Below are positions 29,813 through 32,200 of a stretch of 39,817 nt of DNA, one piece after another. The DNA is from Ruminococcus sp. (GTDB taxonomy: Bacteria; Bacillota; Clostridia; Oscillospirales; Ruminococcaceae). Below the pieces are notes generated by a model, which saw nothing but the letters and a program-made list of their open reading frames with translations, ran no database searches and was not told where the DNA came from. The position numbers and the translations under genes were made by a program. The first letter of the stretch is position 1, and each line of letters opens with the position of its first letter. Location: NCBI GenBank assembly GCA_030531185.1, contig JAUNOG010000019.1:1-39817 (forward strand). Direction: 5' to 3'.

Positions 29813-29836
29813 GGACATCACGGCAGCGTGATGTCC
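29813..29836 (+). repeat. Perfect hairpin just upstream of the DUF378 gene
   Basis: GGACATCACG (29813-29822) pairs with CGTGATGTCC (29827-29836), loop GCAG. There is no T run beyond it, and the DUF378 ribosome binding site follows within 10 bases. The rest of 29583-29857 is AT-rich and holds only the minus-strand promoter. Confidence 0.75.
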
Positions 29837-29857: not shown

Positions 29858-30061
29858 ATGCTGGACAGAATAGCGCTTGCGCTGCTTATCATAGGCGGCA
29901 TCAACTGGGGACTTATCGGTATTTTCAGCTTTGACCTTGTTGCGTTTATCTTCGGAGGACAGGCTGCGGTAATGTCAAGAATTATTTATACTCTTGTGGC
30001 GGTGTCCGCGATCTGGTGCATTTCTTTGTTTTTCAAGGAAAGAGAACTGCTGCCCGATTAG
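29858..30061 (+). CDS. DUF378 family membrane protein (YuzA-like)
   Basis: 67 residues from the ATG at 29858 (GAAAGGAATGATAAAT upstream). Two hydrophobic helices; the first contains LALLIIGGINWGLIGIF, followed by FDLVAFIFG, the diagnostic DUF378 signature. Function unknown, small integral membrane protein. The TAG stop is the start of a heptamer repeat array. Confidence 0.9.
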   Translation: MLDRIALALLIIGGINWGLIGIFSFDLVAFIFGGQAAVMSRIIYTLVAVSAIWCISLFFKERELLPD

Positions 30062-30150
30062 AGGTAAGAGGTTAGAAGTTAGTGGTTAGAACTATTGCGC
30101 GGCTGTTGAGCCGTTTCTAATCTCTGACAGCTAACTTCCGACGTCTGATT
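30058..30150 (+). repeat. Heptamer-repeat palindrome at the DUF378 stop codon
   Basis: Left arm units TTAGAGG, TAAGAGG, TTAGAAG, TTAGTGG, TTAGAAC (30058-30092); GC core CGGCT-GTTG-AGCCG; right arm units TTTCTAA, TCTCTGA, CAGCTAA, CTTCCGA, CGTCTGA (30114-30148). Arms are partly complementary (GAAGTTAG with CTAACTTC). Strict 7-nt period over both arms. Confidence 0.8.
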
Positions 30151-30358
30151 GTCGGAGTTTTGGAAAGGAAGTCTGTTTCGGACTGATTAAAGGCACGGGT
30201 TTGCGAAATAAGGTTCGGGAGAGATTATTCTGCTTTTGATATTTTGATAACTTCAGAATTCAGCAAGGGCAAATTAATCACAGACTTCCTTTCCAAAGCT
30301 CCGACAGGTCTGCCGCCTGAACTGAGGACAGGGACGGATAGACCGATACATAGCAGGC
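30151..30358 (+). ncRNA. Candidate structured non-coding RNA
   Basis: Bases 30151-30175 pair without interruption (one G-U) with 30281-30305. The helix continues: TGATTAA (30184-30190) with TTAATCA (30274-30280), and TTTGC (30200-30204) with GCAAA (30269-30273). The 3' strand is contiguous, giving 37 bp with two 5'-side bulges of eight and nine bases. Inside is an ATTCTG/CAGAAT hairpin (30227-30259). Downstream lies a GGTCT...AGACC hairpin, and GGTTCGGG (30212-30219) could pair with CCTGAACT (30316-30323) as a pseudoknot. Orientation, promoter and ends are uncertain. The size and layout are compatible with the raiA-motif RNA class of Firmicutes, but I cannot confirm this. Confidence 0.55.
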
Positions 30359-30532
30359 TAAAGTATTAAAATTTGAACTAAAAACGTTGTTTTATGTGTT
30401 AATTTCAATAACAAATTTAGGCTGATTTTAGTTATAGCAATAAATGTGTGTGCGAAGTGGTGATTTTGTGCATTCGTTTTTGTGCAGACTGCCGAAATTG
30501 TTCGGAAAATGAATTTTACTTGCAACTTTTTC

Positions 30533-30561
30533 TTGACTTATGTGCAAAAAAAGGGTATAAT
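30533..30561 (+). promoter_or_regulatory. Promoter of a small RNA
   Basis: TTGACT (30533-30538) and TATAAT (30556-30561) with a 17-bp spacer; near-consensus and not followed by a convincing gene before a terminator. Confidence 0.85.
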
Positions 30562-30567
30562 TTAATT

Positions 30568-30692
30568 GATGTTAAGGATATTGAACAATATTTGTTTGAT
30601 TTAACATCCGTTTTGTTGTCTCCTTTCTTTTGTTCTACACATAGTTTTTTTATTTTATTTTCTGCCGGGCACCGTTGCTCGGCTCTTTTTTT
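30568..30692 (+). ncRNA. Candidate sRNA of about 125 nt
   Basis: The predicted transcript begins with a hairpin, GATGTTAA (30568-30575) with TTAACATC (30601-30608) and an inner ATATT/AATAT. A pyrimidine-rich single-stranded region follows, then a terminator. No ribosome binding site plus start codon pair looks usable; the 87-codon frame over this region spans the promoter and is rich in Phe and Cys from T-rich DNA, so I treat it as chance. Confidence 0.65.
30664..30692 (+). terminator. Terminator of the candidate sRNA
   Basis: GCCGGGCA (30664-30671) pairs with TGCTCGGC (30676-30683), loop CCGT, followed by TCTTTTTTT. Confidence 0.88.
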
Positions 30693-30788: not shown

Positions 30789-30875
30789 GAAAGAAAAAAT
30801 TATTCTTTAGGCTGTAACCTTTCCTGAAAAGCTGTGTATATACTAGTGAAAGCCGACAGACGGGAGGTTTTAGGC

Positions 30876-31433
30876 TTGACTGAAAAACGTTTGATTTCAA
30901 AGCTTAAAAACAAGGATAAAAAGGCGCTGGATATTCTCATAAAGGAATATTCCCCTTACGTGTACACGATCGTGAGAAATATCATCGGACAGGCTATGTC
31001 AAAAGAGGATATGGAGGAGGTCGCCGCAGACTGCTTTATAAGGCTGTGGCAGATATCCGAAAAGCTGGACGAAAACCGTCCGATAAGTCCTTATCTTGCC
31101 GCCTGCGCCCGTAACTGCGCCAAGAACAAGCTCAGGGAGCTGCACACCGACTACTGTGCCGACGAACTGTTTGAGGATATAGTTTCCTCGGACAGCATTC
31201 AGGACAGCTACGAGGTCTCCCAGCAGCTTAATCTCATCACCGAATGTCTGGGCGGTCTTTCGGATACCGAACAGGAAATATTCGTAAGATTTTACTATTA
31301 CGGAGAAAAGCTCAGGGAAATAAGCGAAATGCTTGAAATTTCCGAAAGCGCCTGCAAGACCAAGCTTTGCAGGACGAGAGAAAAGCTTAGAAAATATCTG
31401 GCGGAAAGGGGTTACACTAATGAAAGATCTTAA
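30876..31433 (+). CDS. ECF-type RNA polymerase sigma factor
   Basis: About 185 residues from the TTG at 30876, chosen because GGGAGG sits 8 bases upstream; a GTG at 30834 would add 14 residues without a site. Region 2: KALDILIKEYSPYVYTIVRN, EDMEEVAADCFIRLWQISEKL; region 4: LSDTEQEIFVRFYYYGEKLREISEMLEISESACKTKLCRTREKL. No further domains. The next gene overlaps its 3' end and encodes a membrane protein, the usual sigma/anti-sigma layout. Confidence 0.92.
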   Translation: MTEKRLISKLKNKDKKALDILIKEYSPYVYTIVRNIIGQAMSKEDMEEVAADCFIRLWQISEKLDENRPISPYLAACARNCAKNKLRELHTDYCADELFEDIVSSDSIQDSYEVSQQLNLITECLGGLSDTEQEIFVRFYYYGEKLREISEMLEISESACKTKLCRTREKLRKYLAERGYTNERS

Positions 31434-32004: not shown

Positions 32005-32033
32005 TTGACATAACGTCGGGGGTTTGTTATAAT
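32005..32033 (+). promoter_or_regulatory. Promoter of rplJ-rplL
   Basis: TTGACA (32005-32010) and TATAAT (32028-32033), 17-bp spacer, perfect consensus. Confidence 0.94.
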
Positions 32034-32039
32034 ATATAA

Positions 32040-32200
32040 GCATTCGTATCTAAAGACAGCAGGCAGCGGTATCGCGTAAGTCCCGCCGAGGAAGGAATAG
32101 CAAAGTTTTATAACGGCTTTGTGTCTCTTTTGTCTTTATGTGATAAAAGGGATTTTCTTTTTAGTATACGCTTTGTAAAATTATACAAAGAGGTGAAATC
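32040..32200 (+). promoter_or_regulatory. Ribosomal protein L10 leader RNA
   Basis: The 165-nt leader has AAAGACA (32052-32058) pairing with TGTCTTT (32131-32137), enclosing AGCAGGCAGCGG, the CCCGCCGAGG motif and a CAAAG/CTTTG hairpin. These match the general form of Firmicutes L10 leaders, where the L10-L7/L12 complex binds to repress its own synthesis. A CTTTGTA/TACAAAG hairpin (32171-32190) sits right before the ribosome binding site. Confidence 0.8.

Follow-up and report, generated by a model that had tools for sequence, protein, structure and literature searches.

The 39,817-nt stretch of Ruminococcus sp. DNA analysed here (assembly GCA_030531185.1, contig JAUNOG010000019.1; hereafter the window) carries a long, rod-like hairpin at 30151-30306, between a small gene of the DUF378 family and a gene for an extracytoplasmic function (ECF)-type sigma factor (30834-31433), both on the plus strand. 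Here, we identify this hairpin as a member of a family of conserved structured RNAs that is absent from Rfam 15 and that, judging from aligned sequences, has undergone compensatory change beyond the level of controls. A long hairpin with the same 10-nt motif lies 0-87 nt after the stop codon of DUF378, whose product is presumably a membrane-type protein, in all 29 Ruminococcus genomes searched, and we propose that the RNA belongs to the 3' untranslated region (3' UTR) of the DUF378 message.

An earlier note on this DNA had described 30151-30358 as a strongly folded RNA of about 200 nt with a 37-bp helix, a second hairpin and a possible pseudoknot. The strong folding is borne out: the whole stretch reaches -90.5 kcal/mol, whereas its dinucleotide shuffles average -51.5 (z -8.5) and none of the 200 does as well; its minus strand folds less strongly (z -5.9). 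The 27-nt arms at 30150-30176 and 30280-30306 are 96% complementary and rank first among the seven inverted repeats found by a scan of the window (length at least 18, distance at most 300). The minimum-free-energy (MFE) structure of the element is a three-way junction closed by a 26-bp helix, P1 (-73.9 kcal/mol), in which the P2 hairpin holds ACGGGUUUGC at 30195-30204. The 37-bp helix can form, since the strand 30269-30305 does pair as 25 + 7 + 5 bp around bulges of 8 and 9 bases, but when forced it yields -61.7 kcal/mol, 12 kcal/mol worse than the junction. Similarly, the claim that the region is richer in GC holds against its intergenic flanks (45.7% versus 26.1% and 32.2%) but not against the window as a whole (45.4%). 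Neither the second hairpin (30307-30343) nor the proposed pseudoknot partner CCTGAACT (30316-30323) falls within the conserved element. A structured RNA thus survives from that description, on the strength of covariation, strand asymmetry and a match to the held-out window, with an extent of about 30151-30306 rather than 30151-30358.

Across the genus the unit is compact (89-163 nt), and P1 begins 0-27 nt after the DUF378 stop codon in 28 of the 29 loci; the window, at 87 nt, has the longest spacing. The motif ACGGG[UC]UUGC is exact in most of these loci (Table 1) and present as a variant in five, by a pattern that was widened after looking and on which the helix search in the 29 loci was anchored. 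Of the 29 orthologous elements, 28 fold with a z-score below -4, a level that none of 58 control stretches of these loci reaches; the elements, unlike the controls, had been cut out by the helix search. The underlying letters have diverged widely. No copy of the hairpin was found by BLAST at E 0.001 among 120 relatives (query 30040-30400), and 30058-30478 is likewise unmatched by BLAST in both of the closest orthologous loci, although the DNA on either side does match; the corresponding intergenic regions of genomes G028 and G003 hold long hairpins with different arm sequences. Because both the pairing and the loop sequence persist despite many changed letters, the element is probably a functional RNA.

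Two alignments carry this argument. The first, A2, comprises 25 of the 29 genus copies, with the window, G028 and G007 held out and G027 omitted as a near-duplicate of G005; 92.3% of its P1 cells are paired, two-sided changes occur at 18 of 24 pairs, and the covariation score is 0.514, compared with 0.261 for shuffled and at most 0.148 for slid alignments. RNAalifold recovers the same P1 helix from A2. The second, A3, contains 31 copies, including the window and four from other genera, and was fitted to the covariance model and so is biased toward it; here 92.1% of P1 cells are paired, two-sided changes affect 16 of 21 pairs, and the score is 0.635 against at most 0.183 when slid. G-U cells outnumber A-C cells by 69 to 13 in A2 and by 76 to 19 in A3 (the cells are not independent), an excess that would not be expected of a palindrome acting at the DNA level. 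Moreover, a covariance model built without the window, R1, scores the held-out window at 50.8 bits in the sense orientation and 28.9 bits in antisense, and at all 33 loci where R1 matches the element the DUF378-sense match is the better one, being the sole match at three. Because G-U outnumbers A-C and R1 prefers the sense strand of the window, the sequences indicate that the element acts as an RNA on the strand of DUF378.

Table 1. Features of the DUF378 locus and its downstream RNA element in the window
Feature	Positions	Strand	Evidence
Sigma-F/G-like promoter, CGTATA-N17-AATAATA, 55 nt before the DUF378 start codon	29773..29802	+	Top 2% of its own dinucleotide shuffles
DUF378 (PF04070) small protein gene, 67 aa; its putative 3' UTR holds the element	29858..30061	+	Pfam E 2.7e-27; orthologue in 29/29 genus genomes
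P1, 5' strand of the conserved rod (26 bp)	30151..30176	+	MFE helix with 30280-30305; inverted repeat; covariation in relatives
P2 hairpin, 8-bp stem 30177-30184 / 30212-30219, holding the conserved motif	30177..30219	+	MFE
Conserved motif ACGGGTTTGC	30195..30204	+	Exact ACGGG[TC]TTGC in 24/29 genus loci; alignments A2 and A3
P3, extra hairpin giving a three-way junction in the window species	30223..30279	+	MFE; folds
GCAAA segment, can pair with motif UUUGC in the alternative (37-bp) fold	30269..30273	+	Forced fold; comparable alternative helix in albus-like group
P1, 3' strand	30280..30305	+	MFE; inverted repeat; covariation in relatives

Within the reach of our searches, the distribution of the element is narrow. 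A covariance search of the family matched 8 of 297 genomes (five of the genus and three from two other genera), and a search of the order with a further model, R2, matched 4 of 394, namely the window's own genome and G659, G093 and G585; we judged the last three to be chance hairpins, as no DUF378 was found by pattern in the fetched loci. Both searches used stricter filters under which weak matches are lost, and the presence of other members of the genus among the 394 is not evident. When 28 DUF378 loci from other genera were inspected, R1 matched six and four more looked alike by eye (G063, G145, G177 and G148), while the remaining 18 had other hairpins, a few of them ambiguous (for example G130); the 30 genomes behind this comparison were chosen for a match to R1 or to a neighbouring small RNA (sRNA) gene, described below, so that 6/28 and 10/28 are not family rates. 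In ten genomes resembling R. albus, the neighbouring sRNA is divergent and upstream; the element therefore travels with DUF378 and not with the sRNA.

We propose that 30151-30306 is a conserved 3'-UTR RNA of DUF378, read from the plus strand and probably expressed in the forespore, and we assign this reading a probability of about 0.6. A transcript starting at the sigma-F/G-like promoter of DUF378 would extend over the element; the long P1, kept by compensatory change, would protect or form the 3' end of that transcript, or survive as a 3'-UTR-derived sRNA, and would hold up the loop ACGGGYUUGC for contact with a partner in trans, either RNA or protein. Since no more than 27 nt separate the stop codon from P1 in 28 of 29 loci, cotranscription with DUF378 is the simplest reading, and a separate promoter outside DUF378 would hardly fit into so short a spacing. 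Such an RNA would offer a testable entry to the DUF378 protein and to post-transcriptional control in sporulation, as a strongly covarying family in rumen and gut Ruminococcus species, outside Rfam 15 and tied to a gene with a conserved forespore-type promoter.

The link to sporulation comes from three directions. Sigma-F/G-like promoter sequences precede DUF378 in all 29 loci (for example TGAATA-N17-CATAATA), each within the top 2% of 100 of its own dinucleotide shuffles, and the promoter score reaches p ≤0.05 in 22 of the 28 DUF378 loci of other genera. In 20 of 29 genomes, that of the window included, a model of SigG finds a near full-length match of no fewer than 334 bits, and in eight more a match in two pieces; these matches support, and do not prove, the presence of SigG in the genus, some members of which, such as R. 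albus and R. flavefaciens, generally count as non-sporing. Finally, there is the gene yuzA, which we take to be DUF378. In the part of PMC4433262 available to us, yuzA is listed among putative sporulation genes of C. perfringens. Three other literature leads fell away: PMC9610443, retrieved as a paper on DUF378 and spores, concerns DUF3787 in the portion accessible to us, and the yuzA matches in PMC5743806 and PMC7769602 are an author's name in reference lists. Between the promoter and the start codon, a small hairpin (GGACATCAC...GTGATGTCC) lies at 29813-29836, and several other species show, by eye, hairpins of differing sequence in the same interval.

Several observations weigh against the proposed 3'-UTR RNA. 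The weights given to the promoter consensus were set after the upstream sequences had been seen, making the score post hoc, and dinucleotide shuffles leave room for another sigma factor. The SigG match reaches only 144 bits in G019, and the search itself is unspecific, giving no match at the cut-off in the genus and matching E. coli and other non-sporing bacteria as well. Among the four genus copies outside R1 (G000, G027, G028 and G007), the model recovers G000 and G027; with G027 a near-duplicate of G005, the window is the sole independent success within the genus, and R1 misses both the closest relative, G028, and G007, which have long inner inserts. Folds place such inserts in G235 and G301 as well. 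When stems were compared one by one with shuffled flanks, P2 was not individually significant in 22 of 39 elements, including the window (p 0.115), and the 17 with p ≤0.05 include several whose best stem is P1 itself, which rules out P2 as a universal helix. A search of the local sense strand at the 29 loci brought out no clear mRNA partner for the motif; p ≤0.03 was reached in three of them (G028, G012 and G027), at differing places. Lastly, at least six T in eight positions at or just after the end of P1 occur in 12 of 29 loci only, and the window has at most two T in 8 nt.

Another possibility, which we consider the strongest competitor though clearly behind the 3'-UTR RNA, is a free trans-acting sRNA, made from its own promoter inside DUF378 or processed from the mRNA, that pairs with targets through ACGGGYUUGC. 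The compactness of the unit would suit this, as would the position of the motif in a P2 loop, which the window shows in its MFE structure and the albus-like group in a covarying P2; against it, the albus-like motif can pair internally and the search for targets, limited to the local sense strand, found none. Somewhat less probable again is an elongated intrinsic terminator, in which P1 serves solely to stop transcription of DUF378 and the inner sequence is a passenger. The 12 loci with a T-run agree with such a role, and DUF378 genes of other genera that lack the motif are often followed, by eye, by ordinary terminator-like hairpins. Yet the U-run is absent from 17 of 29 loci, including the window and G028, and the inner 10-nt motif has been preserved, whereas passenger sequence would be expected to drift; because the U-run is confined to 12 loci and missing from the window, termination is not the common role of the element.

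A doubtful further alternative is a cis-acting switch, in which the motif would alternate between the P2 loop and a second helix, Palt, and thereby alter where the DUF378 mRNA ends or how stable it is. The ten albus-like elements, the only group in which a covarying P2 is seen, show 47 of 50 cells paired in a P2 around the motif, with two-sided changes at three of five pairs; in the mutually exclusive Palt, the motif pairs with a downstream GCAAGYCC-like segment, and G-U pairs are the only variants seen in this helix, apart from the outermost pair, which is disrupted in four of the ten (the counts for both helices are without control). The window offers a like choice, UUUGC with GCAAA, only in the 37-bp fold that is 12 kcal/mol less stable. 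Compared with shuffled motifs, internal pairing of the motif is significant (p ≤0.01) in six of the ten albus-like elements and in none of the other 19, the window giving p 0.30, and no ligand is at hand. We therefore regard P1 and the motif as solid and P2 as likely, and offer a switch between P2 and Palt as a hypothesis. A bolder combination of these ideas, which we think improbable, would make the element an RNA of the forespore, present in Ruminococcus and a few closely related genera, that is cut from the DUF378 mRNA, kept in the spore, and switched between a loop shown to a trans partner and a loop hidden by internal pairing; if true, a long, freely evolving stem would carry one fixed sensor loop.

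Very unlikely, finally, is the mobile inverted repeat that the earlier note had named as its main alternative, a MITE-like (miniature inverted-repeat transposable element) insertion after DUF378: the near-perfect arms and the dispersed short repeat just upstream recall one, but the element occurs once per genome at the same site in 29 species, shows the G-U/A-C strand bias, and has no match at E 0.01 in phage and plasmid records. In the window's own genome (87% complete), the covariance model finds one copy, and the element is single-copy by DNA as well, its own two arms giving the only other matches below E 0.04. The repeat upstream, of gaggtaagaggttagaagttag type at 30056-30092, is a separate feature; with a BLAST query that includes it, 35 matches were obtained in the same genome at E 0.01 (self counted), all but one to the repeat, which is also matched in 5 of the 120 relatives and accounts there for the BLAST matches of 30040-30400.

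Comparison with known RNA families sets the element apart. At gathering thresholds, the Rfam search suggested by the earlier note returned a single match in the window, an L10 leader (RF00557, 54 bits) at 32032-32167, followed by open reading frames that we take to encode L10 and L7/L12, and no family at the element; of the 29 orthologous loci, 20 were scanned up to E 0.5 and have nothing on the element. Matches at the site to MIR4240 (minus strand, 26.5 bits against a gathering threshold of 200) and ceN68 were taken as chance, and a BSnc120 match in locus L112 (25.6 bits against 114) falls beside the element. The same locus has an odd sub-threshold match to transfer-messenger RNA (tmRNA) at 819-894 on the minus strand, covering only 76 bases (24.4 bits against 47, E 6.5e-6). 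6S RNA (RF00013) is likewise rod-like and of similar size, but has no match at the site, and 6S RNA of the genus was found elsewhere in 26 of 29 genomes, nine of them over the cut-off. Intrinsic terminators and 3'-UTR-derived sRNAs share with the element a stable hairpin directly after a stop codon and, in 12 of 29 loci, a U-run; the stem of the element is much longer, its inner motif is conserved, and 17 loci lack the U-run. Like CsfG and other forespore sRNAs of B. subtilis, the element follows a candidate sigma-F/G-like promoter, yet it forms part of a presumed 3' UTR behind a protein gene, a distinction of layout rather than of direct sequence comparison with CsfG.

The resemblance to the raiA motif (RF03072) that the earlier note had seen was not supported: the window lacks a raiA match at the gathering threshold, none appears at the site even at E 10, and a scan of 20 of the 29 loci with a limit of E 0.5 found none either. 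A raiA search of the genus gave 0 of 29 genomes, a weak result on its own since 14 control genomes were equally silent. Both are structured RNAs of Bacillota, raiA/ModT being about 200 nt, and the accessible part of PMC11706538 links its deletion to spore formation; that source models raiA with helices P1-P8 and two pseudoknots, whereas the present element consists of one long P1 rod with an inner P2 and an optional P3, tied to DUF378 (conserved pseudoknots inside it were not searched for). In the literature searched on DUF378 with noncoding RNA and on RNAs of Ruminococcus or R. albus, judged partly by titles, we found no description of the element.

The SigG searches yielded an observation of their own. 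In five albus-like genomes (G027, G002, G023, G024 and G017) the SigG match is split into pieces 6-9 kb apart on one contig, in G005, G012 and G018 the pieces lie on different contigs, and in G022 and G014 the match is undivided. The gap in G027 (locus L292, G027:C8:31500-40500) contains a large serine recombinase gene adjoining the first piece, a major facilitator superfamily (MFS) transporter, a NAMPT/NAPRTase gene, an isochorismatase-family (nicotinamidase-like) gene and one gene without a Pfam match; a recombinase is also present in the gap of G023. This arrangement looks like a skin-type intervening element, with putative excision. No common end repeat was found in the gaps, and the literature searched held no report of sigG with an intervening element, sporulation and a recombinase.

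Downstream of the element, at 30533-30692, the window holds the second sRNA gene mentioned above, whose sequence is far more conserved than that of the rod. It comprises a TTGACT-N17-TATAAT promoter (30533-30561), the CU-rich core CGTTTTGTTGTCTCCTTTCTTTTGTTCTACACATA (30609-30643), which resembles an anti-Shine-Dalgarno sequence, and a terminator-like hairpin with a T-run (30664-30692). No Rfam family matches the gene, either in the window or at 20 orthologous loci, and a 29-mer from it was not found in the literature searched. BLAST matched it in 73 of 247 genomes of the family, and the exact 35-mer of the core occurs in at least 118 genome contig stretches. Each of 97 unique copies fetched by BLAST or by the core has a T-run, and 92 of them agree with TTGACA/TATAAT at no fewer than 11 of the 12 positions.
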